This document shows positions 6,691 to 42,589 of a stretch of DNA of 64,000 nucleotides, piece by piece; within the stretch, counting starts at the first letter, position 1; each line of letters begins with the position of its first letter. Source of the stretch: Novosphingobium sp. GTDB lineage: Bacteria; Pseudomonadota; Alphaproteobacteria; Sphingomonadales; Sphingomonadaceae. The translations under genes and the position numbers were made by a program. The notes below the pieces were generated by a model, which saw only the letters and a list, made by a program, of their open reading frames with translations, did not search any database and was not told where the DNA came from. The DNA lies in NCBI RefSeq assembly GCF_019748365.1, contig NZ_JAIEPN010000040.1, forward strand, positions 1 through 64,000, read 5' to 3'.

Positions 6691-6717
6691 AGAACGGCGG
6701 ATTCTCAGCGGGGTTTA
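6691..6717 (-). promoter_or_regulatory. candidate sigma-28 promoter of fliD (TAAA-N15-GCCGTTCT)
   Basis: Minus strand: CCTAAACCCCGCTGAGAATCCGCCGTTCT immediately upstream of fliD. Confidence 0.5.
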
Positions 6718-11876: not shown

Positions 11877-13193
11877 TCAGGCGAAGATGCCGCCGCGGCG
11901 CTCGTCAGCGGGCGCGGACGGGCGGGCCGGGTTGGCGGCGGGCTGGGAAGCGGGTGCGGCGGCGCCGTGGCGCTGCTGGCCGGTGCCGGGCTGGCTCTGG
12001 CCCTGACTTTGGGCTTGCGCGGAGCTTTGGCCTGGCGTTTCGGGAGCAGGGGCCATGCGTGCGGGTTCCGAGGTCGCGGCGGCGTGTGCCGCAGCGACGG
12101 CAGGGGCGAAGGTCGGATCGGGGCTCGCCATCGCGACCGAAAGGCCGGCGGCATCGCCTTCGATGCGCAGCGAGATGCGGCCGAATTCCGCGTGATGCAT
12201 GGCGACGGAAACCGGGCCGGCGGGTTCCAGCCCATCGCGCGCGCGGGCGATGGAATCGACGAGCTGATCGAAGCTGATCGGCTGCGGTGCAGGCGCAGCG
12301 GAGGCTGTTGCGGCTGGCGTGGTCGCGGGGGCGAGGGACTGCTGGGCCTGCCCGAGCGCACCGGCTGTTTCGGGAACCGGCAGCGCGGCGCCGTTCGCGG
12401 CGGAGAGCGTGCGATCAGCCTCGACGCGGAGCTTGCGCGGGGCGGCACGATCAGCGGTGGGCGTGCCGGTCAGCGCGGCGAGCGTGGAAGGCTGCGCGCG
12501 GGCGGCGGTCTGCGTGGCGGTATCGGGCGCGACTGCCTCGGGCGTGGCGGTCGGCGCCGCGGGTTCGGCTGCCGCCTCGCGTTCGAGTACGAGCGCGGCG
12601 ACGGCGAAAGCGGCGGGGTGCGCGGTCTGCACGGCGGGCGCAGCGGCTTCGGGCGCGCGCGGCGTGGCGGGCCCTGTCGTGGGAGCGGGTGTGGGAGAGC
12701 TGGGCGCCCCGGTCCGCGCGGTGGTGGCGGTGGGCGCAGGCAAGGGCAACGTGGCGCCGCTGGGCAGGGATAGCGCAACCAGCGCGATGGCCGCCTCGGG
12801 CTCCCCATCGGCGGGGGTCACGGCAGGTGCGGCAGTTTCATCGTGCTCGCTGCCGGCGTCATTCACGGCCTGCGCGATGGCCAGCGCGAGAAGGGCGGCA
12901 GGCGTTGCGGCAGACTTTTGCCGGTGGGGCGGCAAGGTCTTGCCGGTATCGGCAGCGGCTTCTGGCGCATCGGTGGCGACAGGTGCGGCATCAGGTTTGG
13001 CCGAGGGCGCGGCTTGCGGGGTTTGCGGATCACGCGGAGCCTCGTCCGCGCTGGGGGCTTCCCGCGCGAGATGGGCCGCAAATCCGGGGGTATCGGATGC
13101 GCGCGGGCCATTCGCCGCCGGTGCAGGCGCGGCATCGCGCGTCCGATCGGGCGCGGCGGTGCGGGGGAGCAGGGCGGGGGCAGGCGCGGTCAT
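11877..13193 (-). CDS. fliK: flagellar hook-length control protein FliK
   Basis: Ala/Pro-rich, FliK C-terminal-like VAMHHAEFGRISLRIEGDAAGLSVAM; operon position. Confidence 0.8.
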   Translation of the reverse strand: MTAPAPALLPRTAAPDRTRDAAPAPAANGPRASDTPGFAAHLAREAPSADEAPRDPQTPQAAPSAKPDAAPVATDAPEAAADTGKTLPPHRQKSAATPAALLALAIAQAVNDAGSEHDETAAPAVTPADGEPEAAIALVALSLPSGATLPLPAPTATTARTGAPSSPTPAPTTGPATPRAPEAAAPAVQTAHPAAFAVAALVLEREAAAEPAAPTATPEAVAPDTATQTAARAQPSTLAALTGTPTADRAAPRKLRVEADRTLSAANGAALPVPETAGALGQAQQSLAPATTPAATASAAPAPQPISFDQLVDSIARARDGLEPAGPVSVAMHHAEFGRISLRIEGDAAGLSVAMASPDPTFAPAVAAAHAAATSEPARMAPAPETPGQSSAQAQSQGQSQPGTGQQRHGAAAPASQPAANPARPSAPADERRGGIFA

Positions 13194-18324: not shown

Positions 18325-18693
18325 TCAGACCTCCATCCTCATGATGTCCTGGTAGGCAGTGAGCAGCTTGTTGCGCACCTGCAGCGTGGCTTCGAACGCG
18401 ACGCCGGCTTCCTGCCGGGCGAGCATGACCTTGGCGATGTCGGTAACCTCGCCCTTGTCGTAGCCTTCGCTCAGCTTCGAGGCGTTTTCCTGCACCGCGT
18501 TCACATTATCGAGCGCGGACTTGAGCGCGCTGGTGAAGCCGCCTGCAGGCGCTTCGGGCGTGGCTTCGGCTGCGCCCGAAGCGGGCGTGCGGACCTGCTG
18601 GAGCAGCTGCGAGCGATCGATGATCTGCTGGCGCAGCGCCATGATCTGCTGGAGGCCGCCTGCGCCGCCTCCGATGCCCCCGATCCCGCTCAT
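18325..18693 (-). CDS. fliE: flagellar hook-basal body protein FliE
   Basis: GYDKGEVTDIAKVMLARQEAGVAFEATLQVRNKLLTAYQDIMRMEV. Confidence 0.95.
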   Translation of the reverse strand: MSGIGGIGGGAGGLQQIMALRQQIIDRSQLLQQVRTPASGAAEATPEAPAGGFTSALKSALDNVNAVQENASKLSEGYDKGEVTDIAKVMLARQEAGVAFEATLQVRNKLLTAYQDIMRMEV

Positions 18694-19977
18694 CGCCGGC
18701 TACCGGCCACGGCGATGCCGTTCTCGCGGAATTCGGCGAGGCGGTAGCGCAAGGTGCGTTCGGAAATGCCGAGCTTGCGCGCGGCGGCGACGCGGCTGCC
18801 ACCGCAGCTGTCGAGCGCGGCAAGGATGGCGCGGGTTTCGGATAGCTGGACGATGTTGGAGAGCTTGCCGCCGGGGATTGTCGTCATGCTGACAGCGGGA
18901 TCGGCGGCGACGGTTTCGCCCGCGGCGCGCACCGGACGATCGAACACGACATGCTGCAAGCCGATCTCGGGCGCATCGCCTGCGAGGAGCAGCGCGCGGC
19001 GCATCACGTTTTCAAGCTCGCGCACATTGCCCGGCCAGGCGTGGGCTTCGAGCATGGCGAGCGCGGCCTCGCCGATCCACGGCACGGCGCGGCCTTGCGG
19101 CACGTGGCGCAGCACCATGGCGAAGGCGAGCGGGGCGATGTCTGCCGGGCGATCGCGCAGCGCGGCGAGTTCGAGCGGGAAGACGTTGAGGCGGTAATAG
19201 AGGTCGGCGCGGAAGCGGCCTTCCTCGACTTCGCTGGGGAGGTCGCGGTTGGCGCAGGCGATGACACGGACATCGACCTTGACCGGCTTGGTGGCGCCGA
19301 TCGGCATGACTTCGCCTTCCTGCAGCACGCGCAGCAGTTTGGCCTGAAGCGCGAGCGGCATTTCGGCGATCTCGTCGAGCAGCAGGGTGCCGCCATGCGC
19401 CGCGCGGAAGAAGCCTTCGGATGCGGCATTGGCGCCGGTGAACGCGCCCTTCTGGTGGCCGAACAGCATGGCCTCGAGCATGGTTTCGGGCATCGCAGCG
19501 CAGTTGATCGCGATGAACGGCGCCTCGGCGCGCGGCGAGCGCATGTGGATGAAGCGGGAGAGGACTTCCTTGCCGGTGCCGGTGGGGCCGTTGATGAGGA
19601 CGGGGATTTCGGCCGCAGCGAGGCGTTCGGCCAGCGCGAGGACGGAAAGCGTTTCGGGATCGGCGGCAACAGGGCTGCCGGCAGGCGCGGCGCAGGCGAC
19701 CAGTGCGGCGAGCACGGCAGGATCGGCGCTGTCGGCATAGGACAGATCGTGGCGACCGCCATGGCTGCGGGCGATGGCATTGGTGGCGGCGCGGGACAGC
19801 AGCACGGTGCGATCAAACAGGCCGGGCGCAGCCGGCTCTTCCGCGCCGCGCAAGGTGTAGGTTCCGGCGGGGGTGAAGCCACCCAGAACAGAGCGGGCCC
19901 TTGCGAGCAAGGCCGCATGCGGCGAGGCGGGGGTGGCGGCGCTTCCTCCCATTGTGCGCACTGCCTGATCCGTGTTC
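18690..19977 (-). CDS. sigma-54-dependent flagellar transcriptional activator (FlbD/FleQ-type) without a recognisable receiver domain
   Basis: AAA+ [35 protein letters not shown]-terminal Fis-type [39 protein letters not shown] extends to 20087; ATG at 19977 preferred. Confidence 0.9.
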
Positions 19978-20113
19978 ATAATGTTTTGCCCTGTCTTAAC
20001 CATCGAGACAGGCTGTTTTTCGCGCGAAAACGTCAAGCGTGCCGAAACTTTAAGCTCCGTGTACACCCTAAGGGCTAATACGTGCATGCGGCAGATCGCT
20101 GCCGACCCCCCCC

Positions 20114-26523: not shown

Positions 26524-27363
26524 TCAGTTCATCAAAAGAATGCTCATCCGCCGGTTGCGCGGGTCCGTCGGGCTGTCCGCAATCAGCGGTTCCTGATCGG
26601 CGACGCCTTCGATGCGGCGGAAGCGGCCTTCGGCGACGCCGCTGCGCATCAGGGCGAGGCGGGTGGCTTCGGCGCGGCCGGCGCTGAGGGACCAATTGTT
26701 GGCCGGGTCTCCCGGGCGCCATTGCAGCGCATCGGTGTGGCCGCGCACGGTGAGGCCCGAGGCATCGGGGCCGATCGCCTGGCCGATGGCGCGGACGAGT
26801 TCTGCGGCCTCGGGGGTGAGGATCGTGGTGCCGAGGCGGAACATCGAGAACTTGGCGTCGTCCATGAGATCAAGCCGGATGCCCTCGGGCGTCTGCGTTA
26901 CGCGGACCTGCCGGGCGAGTTTGCGCAAGGTCTCGGTCTTGGCGAACCTTTCCTGCAGACGCCGCTGCAGGCTGGCGGTGCGCTTGGCCTTGCTCCCGCC
27001 ATCCTTGGCCCCGCCGGTGGCATCGCGCGGGATTGTCAGCGTCTTGGTGCCGGTCTGCCCGGCGCGGTACTGGTAGCTGTCGGTATCGGTGAGCGAGGAG
27101 CCGCCGAGGAGGCCATAGGAGCCGGCGCTGCCTTCCTTCATTTTGACCAGCGTGGGGGTGAAATAGTCCGCAATGCCCTTGCGCTGCTTTTCGGTGGTCG
27201 CGCCGAGCAGCCACATGAGCAGGAAGAACGCCATCATCGCGGTCACGAAGTCGGCATAGGCGACCTTCCACGCGCCGCCGTGGTGGCCGCCTTCGACGAC
27301 GGTGACTTTCTTGACGATGATCGGGCGGACGGGTTCGTTCTTGCCCTTTGGAGACTTGGCCAA
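26524..27363 (-). CDS. motB: flagellar stator protein MotB (OmpA-like domain)
   Basis: WKVAYADFVTAMMAFFLLMWLLGATT TM with Asp; OmpA-like LTVRGHTDALQWRPGDPANNWSLSAGRAEATRLALMRSGV. Confidence 0.95.
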   Translation of the reverse strand: MAKSPKGKNEPVRPIIVKKVTVVEGGHHGGAWKVAYADFVTAMMAFFLLMWLLGATTEKQRKGIADYFTPTLVKMKEGSAGSYGLLGGSSLTDTDSYQYRAGQTGTKTLTIPRDATGGAKDGGSKAKRTASLQRRLQERFAKTETLRKLARQVRVTQTPEGIRLDLMDDAKFSMFRLGTTILTPEAAELVRAIGQAIGPDASGLTVRGHTDALQWRPGDPANNWSLSAGRAEATRLALMRSGVAEGRFRRIEGVADQEPLIADSPTDPRNRRMSILLMN

Positions 27364-27365
27364 GC

Positions 27366-28229
27366 CTACCTCCCGCGCAAGGCGTCAAGGAGTTCCGAGA
27401 GACCCGGACGGAACGAGTGGCCAAGGCCCGAACGCGCGCTTTCGACGACGAGGGGCTGCGGCCAGCCGTGGAGGCTCGCGATGATCACCTGCTTGACCGC
27501 CTGGAAGATCATCTCGTCCTGATCGAGCACTTGCTTGAGGCGGCCCGCCAAGGGCGCGACGATGCCATAGGCAAGCAGCACGCCCATGAACGTGCCGACG
27601 AGCGCCGAGCCGATCATCGCGCCGAGGATCGCGGGCGGCTTGTCGATCGAGCCCATGGTCTTCACCACGCCGAGCACCGCCGCGACGATGCCGAGCGCGG
27701 GGAGCGCGTCCGCAAGGTTCTGGAGCGCGTGCTGGGGCTCGCTCATTTCGTGGAAATGGGTCTTCATCGCGTGGTCCATCACGTCCTCGACGGCGTGGAC
27801 TTCGAGCGTGCCGGAGGAGACGACGATGAGGGTGAGCGTATCGCAGATCAGCGCGACGAGCGGCTTGTTGGCGAGGATCCTGGGAAACTCGGCAAAGATC
27901 GGCGAATTGGCGGGATCGGTGACATGGCTTTCCAGGGCGACCGGGCCATCGCTGCGCAGGATCTTCATGAGGCGCGTGCACAGCACGATGGCATCGACAT
28001 GATCCTGCTTGGTGTGCCTCGGCCCCTTGAAGACTTTTCCGAGCCCGCCGCCGATGGCCTTGATCTCATGCAGCGAATTGCCGGTGACGACGGCGCCCAG
28101 CGCGGCCCCGCCGATGATCAGCATTTCGTGCGGGATGGCCTCCATGACCGGGCCGAGCGCGCCGCCGGTGATGGCGAAGCCCCCGAACACCATGACGAGG
28201 AGAATGACGATACCGATGGCAGCATACAT
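27366..28229 (-). CDS. motA: flagellar stator protein MotA
   Basis: AIGIVILLVMVFGGFAITGG...ALPALGIVAAVLGVVKTMGSIDKPPAILGAMIGSALVGTFMGVLLAYGIVAPLA. Confidence 0.96.
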   Translation of the reverse strand: MYAAIGIVILLVMVFGGFAITGGALGPVMEAIPHEMLIIGGAALGAVVTGNSLHEIKAIGGGLGKVFKGPRHTKQDHVDAIVLCTRLMKILRSDGPVALESHVTDPANSPIFAEFPRILANKPLVALICDTLTLIVVSSGTLEVHAVEDVMDHAMKTHFHEMSEPQHALQNLADALPALGIVAAVLGVVKTMGSIDKPPAILGAMIGSALVGTFMGVLLAYGIVAPLAGRLKQVLDQDEMIFQAVKQVIIASLHGWPQPLVVESARSGLGHSFRPGLSELLDALRGR

Positions 28230-36240: not shown

Positions 36241-36256
36241 AGCAAGGGGCGTGCCA
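36241..36256 (-). promoter_or_regulatory. sigma-54 (-24/-12) promoter of the flgB operon
   Basis: Minus strand TGGCACGCCCCTTGCT, full match to TGGCACG-N4-TTGCW, about 40 nt upstream of flgB. Confidence 0.88.
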
Positions 36257-36299
36257 AGCGCTGAAATGCGGGGGATTGCAGTCCACGGCCGGGTTTCGT

Positions 36300-36317
36300 C
36301 CGGCAAGCGCTTGCCGG
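36300..36317. promoter_or_regulatory. perfect 18-bp palindrome, candidate activator site
   Basis: CCGGCAAGCGCTTGCCGG, in the divergent flgB / 36402 intergenic region. Confidence 0.6.
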
Positions 36318-36401
36318 GTCGCGGCAAATTCCTTCCGCCGCCTCTGAAGGTTGCTTGCATGCTGCCGTTCTTAGGAGGTCAGAGAGCGAGGCACTGCAGC
36401 G

Positions 36402-37070
36402 ATGGACTTTGCACGCATGTTCGACCCGATTGCGGCGAGCATTGTCATCAGTGGAACCCTGGGCGCTACGGCGCTGCGCAGCGGCTTGGCGGACTGCGGC
36501 GCTGCGCTGGGTGCCTTGGTGCAGCGCCGGTTTCGCGCGGACCAAGTGCGCGGCGCGCTGGCACCGATGGTCGCGCAGGCCGAACGCGAGGGACTGTTGC
36601 GGGCAAACCTTCGCCCGAGCGGCGATGCTACCATCGACTCCGCCCTCGGTGTCCTGATCCAGACCCGCAGCCTCGCCGCCTTTGTCAACAGCGACGATGC
36701 TGCCCGCGAAGCGCGCGTTTCCCGTTCCGTGCGTGCAGTGCGCACGCTGGCGCTGGGGGCGGAACTCTCGCCGGTGTTCGGGCTTGCGGGCACGCTCATT
36801 TCGCTGAGCCAGTTGCCGGTAGAGGGTCTTGCGCGCGGGGCCTTCATGGGGGCCATTTCGATGGCGGTGCTGACGACGCTTTATGGCCTGCTCCTTGGCA
36901 ACCTGATTCTGGCGCCGCTCTCGCGCGCGGTCGAACGGCGCGTAGAGGCAGAGGAAGCGGCAAGGCGGGAAATCGCCGATTGGTTGATCGCCAAGCTGGG
37001 GCCGGTCTGTCCGCCGGTGCAGGCGGCGGGAAGCGCGGTTCGCCGCGCCTACTTGCGCGAGGTGCCATGA
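36402..37070 (+). CDS. MotA/TolQ/ExbB-family proton channel-like protein, distinct from motA
   Basis: VIQTRSLAAFVNSDDA...LGAELSPVFGLAGTLISLSQLP...GAFMGAISMAVLTTLYGLLLGNLILAPLSRAVERR. Confidence 0.8.
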   Translation: MDFARMFDPIAASIVISGTLGATALRSGLADCGAALGALVQRRFRADQVRGALAPMVAQAEREGLLRANLRPSGDATIDSALGVLIQTRSLAAFVNSDDAAREARVSRSVRAVRTLALGAELSPVFGLAGTLISLSQLPVEGLARGAFMGAISMAVLTTLYGLLLGNLILAPLSRAVERRVEAEEAARREIADWLIAKLGPVCPPVQAAGSAVRRAYLREVP

Positions 37071-37498
37071 GCGTTCCGCCACACGGTCTCTATGGTGCGC
37101 CGATTGCCATGCCTTGGCAGACAATTCTCGCCGACCTCGCACTGATCCTGTTCCTGATGACAGCTGCCGCACTCGCCTCGGCGCCGAATGGCCCATTGCT
37201 GCCGAGCGCACCGAAGGCTCCGCCGCAAGCGCCCTCCGCGCGAGGTGAGCCGGTCGGAGTCTGGCGCGAAGGGCCGGGCATGCCCAAGCTGGCCGAATGG
37301 CTGGCCCAGCAGGCGCGCGACCCGCGGCTGAGGGTCTCGATCCTGGTGCGTCATGTGCAAGGCCATGAAGCCGCCGCATTCGCCCGCACGCAGGCATTGG
37401 TGGCAGCGGCCGGACCGCGCGGCGCGTCTGCCCGGATCGTGATCGAGCCGGGGCGGGAGGATGCCGCGAGCGTCGTCCTTGCCTATGACGCCGAGTGA
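37067..37498 (+). CDS. short ExbD/TolR/MotB-like partner (143 aa; single N-terminal TM with Asp)
   Basis: ATGA overlap with the ExbB-like gene; TM MPWQTILADLALILFLMTAAALASA; C-terminus VSILVRHVQGHEAAAFARTQALVAAAGPRGASARIVIEPG. ATG 37067 inside the longer ORF 36251-37498. Confidence 0.7.
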   Translation: MSVPPHGLYGAPIAMPWQTILADLALILFLMTAAALASAPNGPLLPSAPKAPPQAPSARGEPVGVWREGPGMPKLAEWLAQQARDPRLRVSILVRHVQGHEAAAFARTQALVAAAGPRGASARIVIEPGREDAASVVLAYDAE

Positions 37499-37553: not shown

Positions 37554-38060
37554 ATGCCTGCTTTTCGCCACTATCTCTCTCTTGCGCTGTCGCTCGCCCC
37601 GCTGCCGGCCTTTGCCGCGCCGCTCACCGATCTGGCCGCGATCGACCGCGCCGTAGCGGCCTTCACCGGGCAGCAGATCGGCGTGCCGGGCGGCGCAGCG
37701 CAGCCGGTGGATCGGCGGCTCCGCCTTGTGGCCTGCAATGCCCCGCTGGCGCTTTCCTGGTATGGCAATGCGCAGACGAGCGTGCTGGTGCGCTGCCCCG
37801 ATGCGGGCGGCTGGCGCGTGTTCGTGCCGGTGAGTGCGGAGCGGGCCGTGCCAACAGTCGCTCCCGCCGTGATGGCCGTGGCGCGCGGCGAGGGCGTGAC
37901 GGTCATGGTCTCGGGCGCAGGCTTCTCGGTCTCGCAGCCGGGCGAAGCGCTCGATGCAGGAGCGGTGGGCGCGTGGATCCGCGTGAAGACCGCCGCGAAG
38001 GCCGATCCGCTGCGCGCCCGCGTGGTGCGCCCCGGACTGGTCGAATTGCCGGTGGACTAG
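37554..38060 (+). CDS. flgA: flagellar P-ring assembly chaperone FlgA
   Basis: Signal peptide; C-terminal SAF-like GVTVMVSGAGFSVSQPGEALDAGAVGAWIRVKT...RARVVRPGLVELPVD. Confidence 0.85.
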   Translation: MPAFRHYLSLALSLAPLPAFAAPLTDLAAIDRAVAAFTGQQIGVPGGAAQPVDRRLRLVACNAPLALSWYGNAQTSVLVRCPDAGGWRVFVPVSAERAVPTVAPAVMAVARGEGVTVMVSGAGFSVSQPGEALDAGAVGAWIRVKTAAKADPLRARVVRPGLVELPVD

Positions 38061-38103
38061 AGCCTGTCCTGATGAGGTGGAGGCCTCATCAGGACAGGCT
38101 CTA
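38058..38103. repeat. 46-bp perfect palindrome built from the terminal repeat seen at 1745-2015
   Basis: tagagcctgtcctgatgagg-tggagg-cctcatcaggacaggctcta (20-bp arms, 6-nt loop). Confidence 0.95.
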
Positions 38104-38889: not shown

Positions 38890-38891
38890 TT

Positions 38892-39767: not shown

Positions 39768-41861
39768 ATGCTGAAACGCTTCGGCTCTCCCGGCGCATTG
39801 GCGCTGCCCGGCGGCATCCTGATCCTGATCGCGCTGATGATCATGCCGATCCCGGCGTTTCTGCTCGACGGGTTCTTCGTCCTCAATATCGCGCTTTCGG
39901 TCGCGATCCTGATGGCGGCGATGAATGCGCTGAAGCCGCTCGATTTCTCCTCGTTCCCTTCGGTGCTGCTCTTCGCCACCCTGCTGCGGCTGGCGCTCAA
40001 CGTGGCTTCCACGCGCATCGTGCTGGTCAATGGCCACGAAGGCGGCGCGGCGGCGGGGCATGTGATCGAAAGCTTCGGCGAATTCCTGATCGGCGGCAAT
40101 TTCGCGGTCGGCCTGTTTGTCTTCATGATCCTGATGATCATCAACCTGATGGTCGTGACCAAGGGCGCGGGGCGCGTTTCGGAAGTTTCGGCGCGCTTCA
40201 CCCTTGATGCCTTGCCGGGCAAGCAGATGGCCATCGACGCGGACTTGGCGGCGGGCCTGCTGACGGCGGACGAAGCCAAGGCGCGGCGCCGCGAAGTGGC
40301 GACCGAGGCCGATTTCTACGGCTCGATGGATGGTGCCAGCAAGTTCGTGAAGGGCGACGCGGTCGCTGCGCTGCTGATCCTTGGCGTCAATATCATCGCC
40401 GGTTTCTGCCTTGGCATGCTGAGCCATGGGCTGACCGCGCAGGAATCGGCGAGCCGCTACATCACGCTGGCGGTGGGCGATGCGCTGGTGGCGCAAGTGC
40501 CTTCGCTGCTGCTTTCGATTGCAGCGGCGGTGATCGTGACCCGCGTTTCGGATACCCGCGACCTTGCGGGGCAGATCGGCGGGCAGTTTGCCTCCCCCGG
40601 CACGTGGCTGCCGGTGGCGGTGATCCTCGGCGTGATCGGGATGATCCCGGCCATGCCGCAGATGGTGTTCATGCCCGCTGCCGCCATGGCCGGGTGGATC
40701 TGGTGGAGCCTGAGAAAGCGCGAGGCCCGGCTTGCCGTGCCGCCGCCAGTGGTGGTGGAGCAGGTCGATCCGGCGAAGATCACGCTGGAGGAGGTTTCCG
40801 ACCACACGCTCGTGACCATCGAACTGGGCTATGGTCTGGTGCATCTCGTCGACGAGAAGCGCGGGGCGCCGCTGGTTGCGCGGATCACCGGCGTGCGCAA
40901 GCAGCTTTCGCAGAGCTTCGGCTTCGTGGTGCCGCAGTTCCGCGTGCGCGACAGTCTGGACCTGATGCCCGATGCCTATCGCATCGTGCTGGGCGGCGTG
41001 GCGCTGGGCGGGGCGAGCATCAAGGCAGAGAAAGTGCTCGCCATCGATGCGGGCGAGGCCAACCCGGATCATTCCCTGCGCGGCGAGGCGACCGTGGACC
41101 CGAGCTTCGGCTGCCCGGCGATCTGGATCGAACCGGGGCAGCGCGACCATGCGATTGCCGAAGGGTTCCTGACTGTGGACGCCTCCACGGTTGTCGCCAC
41201 CCATCTCAACCAGGTGCTCGGCGAACGGCCGCAGGCGCTGCTTGGCCCGGATGAAGTCCGCGCGATCCTTGATGGCGTGCGGGATCGTGCGCCGGGGCTG
41301 GTGGAGACCGTCCATCCGCAGCCGATCACGCTGGGCGCGATGACGCGGCTGTTCCACGCGCTGCTGGAAGACGGGGTGAGCATCGCGCATCCGCTGCCGA
41401 TCCTTTCCGCGCTGGCCGAAGCGGTGCTGCAGACCAATGACCACGACAAGCTGGTCGATCTGGTGCGCGCGTCGCTCGGCGGGCTGCTGGTTTCGCGCAT
41501 CTGCGGGCCGAATGAACGGCTGGCGGTGCTGACGCTGGATGGCGCCCTGGAGCAGATGATCGTGGGCGGGATGCACGATCCCGTGACCGGACAGCCGGTG
41601 ATCGAGCCCGATCTCGCGCGTTCCATCGGCGAGCGGATTGCCGCGATCATTGCCGAGCGCGGGCCTGCCGCTGCCCCGGTTGCCCTCATCGTCCAGCCGC
41701 GCGCCCGCCGCGCCCTTGCCGCGCTGCTGCGCCAGCGTGCGCCGCAATGCGCGGTGCTTTCGATTTCCGAACTGCCGCCCAGCCAGCCGATCGAAGTGAT
41801 CGAGGTGGTGGGCGGAAACCCTGACCAGATGGACTCCGGCCCACAGGATCTTGCCGCATGA
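39768..41861 (+). CDS. flhA: flagellar export protein FlhA
   Basis: FVLNIALSVAILMAAMNALKPLDFSSFPSVLLFATLLRLALNVASTRIVLVNGHEG; KGDAVAALLILGVNIIAGF. Confidence 0.97.
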   Translation: MLKRFGSPGALALPGGILILIALMIMPIPAFLLDGFFVLNIALSVAILMAAMNALKPLDFSSFPSVLLFATLLRLALNVASTRIVLVNGHEGGAAAGHVIESFGEFLIGGNFAVGLFVFMILMIINLMVVTKGAGRVSEVSARFTLDALPGKQMAIDADLAAGLLTADEAKARRREVATEADFYGSMDGASKFVKGDAVAALLILGVNIIAGFCLGMLSHGLTAQESASRYITLAVGDALVAQVPSLLLSIAAAVIVTRVSDTRDLAGQIGGQFASPGTWLPVAVILGVIGMIPAMPQMVFMPAAAMAGWIWWSLRKREARLAVPPPVVVEQVDPAKITLEEVSDHTLVTIELGYGLVHLVDEKRGAPLVARITGVRKQLSQSFGFVVPQFRVRDSLDLMPDAYRIVLGGVALGGASIKAEKVLAIDAGEANPDHSLRGEATVDPSFGCPAIWIEPGQRDHAIAEGFLTVDASTVVATHLNQVLGERPQALLGPDEVRAILDGVRDRAPGLVETVHPQPITLGAMTRLFHALLEDGVSIAHPLPILSALAEAVLQTNDHDKLVDLVRASLGGLLVSRICGPNERLAVLTLDGALEQMIVGGMHDPVTGQPVIEPDLARSIGERIAAIIAERGPAAAPVALIVQPRARRALAALLRQRAPQCAVLSISELPPSQPIEVIEVVGGNPDQMDSGPQDLAA

Positions 41862-42589
41862 ACCATGATCACCGCAGCTTTGCCGCCGCGCGCGCCTATC
41901 AGGGCGGGACGGCGGACCGCATCCGCCGCTTCCTGCCGATGGTGCGCCGCCTTGCCTGGCACGTCCACGGATCGGGCCGGGCGGGCATCGAAGTCGAAGA
42001 CCTCGTGCAGGCCGGGCTCGTCGCGCTCACCGAATGCGCGCAGAAGCACAATGCGCCGACCGAGGACGGCTTTGCCGCCTATGCCAAGCTGCGCGTGCGC
42101 GGCGCGATGGTCGATCTGGTGCGGCGCTCCACCCCGCTATCGCGCAGCGCGAGCGACCGGCGCAAGCTGCTGGCGGGCGCGGCGCAGACCCTCACCGCCA
42201 CGCTGGGCCGCGCGCCGAGCGAGGACGAACTCGCCGAAGCGATGGGCATGACCACCGCCGGCTTAAGCGAACTGCGCGCCTCGAGCGAGCCGATGCGCTT
42301 CGAGCCCATCGACGATACCTATTCGGACAGCGACATGGCCTTCGCCGACGACCGGCCGGACAGCTTCGAACTGCTGGCCGACGAGCAATCGCGGACGCAA
42401 GTGGTGGCGGCGATTGCCGGCCTGCCGGAGCGGCTGCAGCGGGTGATCCAGCTCTATTTCGTGGAGGAACTGAACCTGGCGGAAATCGCCGAAGTGCTGT
42501 CGGTCAGCGTGCCGCGTGTGCACCAGCTGAAGGCGCAGGCATTGGACAAACTGCGCAGCGCGCTTGGGGATGAGTTTGATGTGCTTTAG
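41858..42589 (+). CDS. fliA: RNA polymerase sigma factor FliA (sigma-28)
   Basis: RFLPMVRRLAWHVHGSGRAGIEVEDLVQAGLVALTECAQ; C-terminal LPERLQRVIQLYFVEELNLAEIAEVLSVSVPRVHQLKAQALDKLRSAL. Confidence 0.95.
   Translation: MNHDHRSFAAARAYQGGTADRIRRFLPMVRRLAWHVHGSGRAGIEVEDLVQAGLVALTECAQKHNAPTEDGFAAYAKLRVRGAMVDLVRRSTPLSRSASDRRKLLAGAAQTLTATLGRAPSEDELAEAMGMTTAGLSELRASSEPMRFEPIDDTYSDSDMAFADDRPDSFELLADEQSRTQVVAAIAGLPERLQRVIQLYFVEELNLAEIAEVLSVSVPRVHQLKAQALDKLRSALGDEFDVL

Follow-up and report, generated by a model that had tools for sequence, protein, structure and literature searches.

A TM1-less PomA-type subunit and a compact MotB-like partner encoded between flgB and flgA in sphingomonads: a possible accessory ion motor of the flagellum

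Stator-type cores are not confined to flagella: in SiiAB, AglRQS and other stator-derived, non-flagellar motors such a core has been reused with a small periplasmic domain, and these systems are not tied to flagellar genes. A flagellar stator is recognised by its four-TM fold, its rotor interface and its full peptidoglycan-binding domain, and a 2025 survey of stator evolution describes flagellar stators by a four-TM square fold, a torque interface, a plug and an OmpA-type domain (PMC12505986); its main text makes no mention of sphingomonads or of truncated forms. The closest described relatives of the gene pair reported here (A and B) are the PomAB and TGI4 stators, with which it shares homology of the A subunit, the channel prolines, a threonine triad, the Asp in the TM helix of B, an OmpA-like domain and the adjacency of the two genes. 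It differs from them in that TM1 is absent, the rotor-contact charges are lost in most members, the model of the window's B shows no plug helix, the periplasmic domain is tiny (B has 143 aa against ~315) and a canonical MotAB coexists. Several hallmarks of a stator have been lost in A-B and the ion path kept. No description of the pair was found in the open-access literature searched.

The pair is located in the window (the whole 64,000-nucleotide stretch of Novosphingobium DNA that was analysed) between the divergent genes flgB and flgA, with flagellar genes on both sides. The genes relevant to the comparison are the following:

36402-37070, + strand: A subunit gene (222 aa); Pfam MotA_ExbB match; predicted 3-TM, TM1-less stator subunit of the PomA/MotA type
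37067-37498, + strand: B subunit gene (143 aa); invariant Asp23; AF2 model; HHalign chain to canonical MotB
37067-37070, + strand: ATGA stop/start overlap, coupling A and B; read from the sequence
37554-38060, + strand: flgA (P-ring chaperone); ChapFlgA match of 41.9 bits
35852-36199, - strand: flgB, the divergent neighbour; Flg_bb_rod match
27366-28229, - strand: canonical motA, part of the coexisting main stator; profile matches to MotA_N and MotA_ExbB
26524-27363, - strand: canonical motB with a full OmpA domain; profile matches to MotB_plug and OmpA

The reading frames, coordinates and ATGA overlap given by an earlier sequence-only reading of this DNA were exact on re-checking, and its calls of flgA, flgB and the canonical motA and motB were confirmed by domain matches in the window. 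A gap of 55 bp separates B from flgA, the gene that follows it, and A, B and flgA, which read in the same direction, probably form an operon. Across the loci compared, A and B overlap in most cases by ATGA or GTGA at -4, the remainder being spaced within a few bases, and B lies 3' of A in 40 of the 41 loci of the first set.

The A protein matches Pfam MotA_ExbB with 33.5 bits (cut-off 22.9). A profile built from 40 A proteins found PomA in the PDB at an E-value of 2e-47, in an alignment that starts at PomA residue 26, while TolQ and ExbB were reached only at 5.5e-4 to 7e-3; the homology covers PomA 26-225. The AF2 model of A (pLDDT 92.5) has three TM segments and keeps the cytoplasmic helices and domain size, and its best Foldseek match is PomA (8brd, TM 0.78), with ExbB at ~0.5. 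Only seven residues precede the column of PomA D31 in the window's A, where PomA types have a mean of 32 and canonical MotA one of 36, and the reading frames upstream of A are either too short to hold TM1 or of low hydropathy; for these reasons we conclude that A has lost this helix. As to the traits by which flagellar ion transporter (FIT) stators are recognised (PMC12505986), the four-helix square fold is therefore absent in A, TM1 being missing, but the affinity with PomA/MotA over ExbB/TolQ is present. In a tree built without an ExbB/TolQ outgroup, the TM1-less A proteins fall on one side of a branch with SH-aLRT 92, which is below the tool's mark of 95 and not conclusive, and canonical MotA stands apart from them with support of 100. 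When seven other families of the order were compared, the best relatives of A proved to be ~255-aa, 4-TM PomA types encoded beside flhA. Profile, model and tree together indicate that A descends from PomA-type stators and has since lost TM1. The sequence-only reading had described A as MotA/ExbB-like, with MotA/TolQ/ExbB-type membrane segments; the segments are three and not four, and the type is that of PomA rather than a generic one.

The canonical MotAB of the window (26524-28229) shares with A-B the superfamily, the TM Asp and a location among flagellar genes, but belongs to a separate subfamily, with a tree support of 100; MotA_N is missing from A, and canonical MotA lacks the threonine triad discussed below. 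A BLASTP comparison of canonical MotA with A gives a match of only 2e-4. A recent duplication of motAB was ruled out as the origin of the pair, the subfamilies being different.

B alone has no match in Pfam or NCBIfam. Among its 40 aligned orthologues, 16 match MotB_plug and 16 match OmpA; in the half of the family to which the window does not belong, B has the form of a compact MotB. HHalign connects window-clade B to other-clade B at 94%, and other-clade B to canonical MotB at 97% over the TM segment and the OmpA domain; it is by way of these bridging relatives that B is tied to canonical MotB. A B-family profile finds MotB1/PomB at 1.7e-9 to 5e-8, and no ExbD or TolR is among its 50 matches. 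As in the MotB/PomB family, B has a single TM segment with an ion-binding Asp; this residue (D23), to which the sequence-only reading had drawn attention, is invariant (40/40) and stands in the W-x4-ADL context of MotB/PomB.

In the AF2 model of B (pLDDT 87), the TM helix at 17-37 is followed by a Pro-rich linker, with coil at 38-61 in the place of the plug and no plug helix, and by a beta-alpha-beta-alpha-beta-beta domain in OmpA-like order. The plug, linker and expanded peptidoglycan-binding domain of OmpA type that mark FIT stators are thus not all found in the window's B. The domain had been taken for the second half of an OmpA-like fold; it is indeed reduced and OmpA-like, but in the model it is a whole minimal domain. 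Foldseek gave no significant match for the B model, its weak neighbours including Helicobacter MotB and SiiA periplasmic domains. At the peptidoglycan-contact positions, Asp is mostly lost and Arg kept in 11 of 21 in the window clade, and the other clade has Arg in 19/19 and Asp in 8/19.

These comparisons bear on the reading of A-B as an ordinary ExbBD/TolQR pair that lies in the flagellar cluster by chance, which the three TM segments, the approximate ExbD size of B and the database label 'MotA/TolQ/ExbB proton channel family protein' might suggest. We consider it highly improbable, because profile, fold and tree place the pair with PomA and MotB, because its site is linked to flagellar genes and because the window's genome has three other ExbB/TolQ-like genes besides A. 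The 3-TM topology of A and the small B are shared with ExbBD/TolQR, having been reached secondarily in A-B, but TolQ and ExbB are distant from A (5e-4 and 7e-3), B is unlike ExbD or TolR, and the linkage is flagellar; on profile, fold and B-subunit comparison this identity was rejected. Two further candidates were set aside: Zorya ZorAB (no PADLOC match) and a SiiAB-like secretion energiser (a type I secretion locus was not seen, and the neighbours were flagellar in the loci surveyed).

The residues of the ion path are conserved in A. P151, T158 and P199 are kept in 39 of 39 proteins, and position 186 is T or S in all of them. The triad of Thr158, T/S185 and T/S186 is found in 20/20 of the window clade and 14/19 of the other clade (34/39 A in total), as well as in 49/49 4-TM PomA types, but in none of 21 canonical MotA, which carry Ala/Gly/Thr in its place. 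Conservation of this triad is a published feature of stators driven by sodium (PMC10374538), and from these three threonines only we infer an ion site of the Na+ type in A-B, so that the cell may possess a unit of the Na+ type in addition to one of the H+ type.

Vibrio PomA cannot support motility without R88, E96 and D114. R/K88 and D/E114 occur together in 49/49 of the 4-TM relatives but in only 6/39 A, and the window's A has E61, N69 and Q87 at the positions of R88, E96 and D114. Of the expanded torque interface of FIT stators, the helices are retained in the model of A and the charge pair in those six proteins. Other positions, specific to A, are conserved in their stead (R105 in 37/39; R67, D75, R89 and S90 in 17-20 of 20 window-clade A), so the cytoplasmic surface may have been re-specified and not simply released from constraint.

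Dual-stator systems (MotAB/MotCD, MotAB/PomAB) provide the model for a rival explanation, in which A-B would be an auxiliary torque-generating stator, brought into contact with FliG only in particular circumstances (Na+, load or a surface). This would fit the PomA ancestry and fold, the kept cytoplasmic helices, the location with flagellar genes, the OmpA domain kept by other-clade B, and a Na+-type triad that complements an H+-type canonical MotA. The sequence-only reading had named an auxiliary stator among its options, and the loss of the rotor-contact charges, with the R88/D114 pair present in only 6/39, weakens it. Also against it, TM1 is lost, the window's B model has no plug helix, the peptidoglycan-binding positions are degenerate and no intact genome has A-B as sole stator. 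We regard this explanation as unlikely, if still worth keeping in mind.

Within the family, 92 of the 200 genomes searched gave a match to A. Four of these are non-members: G007, G053 and G057 have a full-length 4-TM PomA beside flhA, and G131 is spurious. The pair is accordingly carried by ~88 of the 200, of which 79 were inspected individually: A was confirmed to lie between divergent flgB and flgA in the window and in 78 of 80 further genomes, and the other nine have a B match beside A. In a search of named genomes with the profile of a close A subset, the best 80 matches, mostly from Novosphingobium, had the flgB/flgA site in all or nearly all cases. In the genomes sampled elsewhere in the order and class the TM1-less pair was not found, only full 4-TM PomA types. 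The proposal of a second flagellum-linked pair of ion-driven type, in which the TM Asp is conserved and the OmpA-like domain reduced, is supported, its position being conserved in flagellated relatives. None of the results that the sequence-only reading had named as counter-evidence was obtained: B has homologues, its TM Asp and the site are conserved, and the profiles do not point to TolQR/ExbBD. G053 and G057 (loci L137 and L138) have a different flagellar gene arrangement, with the 4-TM PomA-type gene near flhA. In Qipengyuania citrea, a large flagellar cluster that includes motAB and an A-B pair is borne on a 270-kb plasmid (L166, NZ_CP098495.1); the public label of A there is 'MotA/TolQ/ExbB proton channel family protein' and that of B 'hypothetical protein'. 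Our results suggest that in many sphingomonads the genes so labelled encode part of the flagellum.

Compared with close Novosphingobium relatives, dN/dS was 0.10-0.16 for A, 0.09-0.12 for B and 0.14-0.18 for flgA. A and B are on this ground real genes under strong purifying selection, and a pseudogene was ruled out. That the pair is a functionless, decaying remnant of a second stator could be argued from the loss of motifs and from one lineage (G019, locus L096) in which B is gone and A is degenerate, without its conserved GT and TLYG motifs. It seems to us barely credible, with dN/dS of ~0.1 for both genes and constraint no weaker than that on flgA, with the Asp and the prolines invariant and with the pair retained in 88 of 200 family genomes. 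The decay of A motifs in L096, where B has been lost, fits A and B working together. Within that one genus, G019 has the decayed A without B and G106 (L133) has neither, and both retain the flagellar genes and motA.

Canonical MotA_N is also present in all of the 88 genomes but two, G037, in which it is missing and the flagellar genes look broken, and G144, a fragmented assembly. The idea that A-B is the sole stator of some lineages was dropped in view of the state of these two, and no intact genome among those surveyed has A-B alone. Conversely, FlhA and MotA_N occur together in 124 genomes, and ~39 of these do without the pair, so any role it has is not essential for having a flagellum; in the pair-less genomes inspected that have this type of cluster, flgA abuts flgB.

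The same genomes weigh against another explanation, that A-B is an envelope energiser in which ion flow like that of ExbBD/TolQR helps the P and L rings or the rod through the peptidoglycan together with FlgA. The ExbB-like 3-TM topology and ExbD-like size (reached secondarily), the loss of the rotor-contact charges and the common direction and probable operon with flgA are in line with it. No TonB- or TolA-like partner was seen among the neighbours, however, and the neighbourhood is its sole specific evidence: the P/L-ring option of the sequence-only reading derives from the apparent operon with flgA. With ~39 flagellated relatives lacking A-B, and flgA beside flgB where inspected, we find it rather improbable.

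The explanation that we prefer, with a probability of roughly one half, is that A-B is a stator-derived accessory ion motor dedicated to the flagellum and not its principal source of torque. It builds on the PomA-type descent, the loss of TM1, the smaller periplasmic domain, the retained ion path, the missing canonical rotor charges and the strict flgB/flgA linkage, all of which comparison of sequences and structures shows. An accessory role is favoured over that of main torque generator by the replacement of R88, D114 and E96 together with the conservation of other A-specific residues, by the nearly constant presence of MotAB, by the weak peptidoglycan domain and by the lack of a plug helix. 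Against it, the cytoplasmic domain of A keeps its size and helices, which would also fit rotor contact, and 6/39 A proteins keep R88 and D114. In the mechanism we propose, A and B would form a reduced 5:2 ion-driven unit of the PomAB type, in which, by homology, five A subunits would surround a B dimer; ions would pass via Asp23 of B and, by the mechanism of PomAB, make A rotate against B, and the unit would probably act on the basal body, either by modulating the main stators or through another partner in the basal body or envelope. A-B would then be a natural test of which stator parts are needed for ion-driven rotation and which for torque on FliG.

Putative regulatory sites occupy the flgB-A intergenic region:

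36241-36257, - strand: sigma54 -24/-12-like site TTGGCACGCCCCTTGCT, near-perfect, reading towards flgB
36301-36316, no strand assigned: palindrome CGGCAA-N4-TTGCCG upstream of A; motif match
36344-36371, + strand: sigma28-like promoter CTGAAGGTTGCTTGCATGCTGCCGTTCT, a candidate for the A-B-flgA unit; motif match

A reverse-strand sigma54-like match is found in 32 of 41 loci, and a second near-perfect -24/-12 site of the window stands at 38891 (+), before lytic transglycosylase and flhA genes. The palindrome, a putative ftr/FlbD-like site by its resemblance to the ftr consensus, recurs within one mismatch in 38/41 flgB-A intergenic regions, with 0.0 perfect matches expected in the shuffled window; near-matches lie by flagellar genes at 12908, 12930, 20121, 36301, 38114, 38144 and 38617. 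FlbD binds ftr sites in Caulobacter (PMC3930126), and the sigma54 activator gene at 18693-20087 (minus strand) may encode an FlbD-like regulator. The sigma28-like pattern, CT(A/G)AA-N-GCCGTTCT, has two matches in the 64 kb (expected 0.0), at 6691 (-) near fliD and at 36344 (+) before A, and 11/21 of the window's clade have a loose form of it. After flhA comes, at 41858-42589, a gene for a sigma factor of the sigma-70 family.

At 1747-2013 the window has an element of ~267 bp bounded by the terminal inverted repeats GAGCCTGTCCTGATGAGG, and four more copies of ~265 bp are found on other contigs. Directly after flgA, at 38060-38101, these terminal repeats stand alone and back to back. The repeats are a MITE-like family, of which the copy after flgA is internally deleted.
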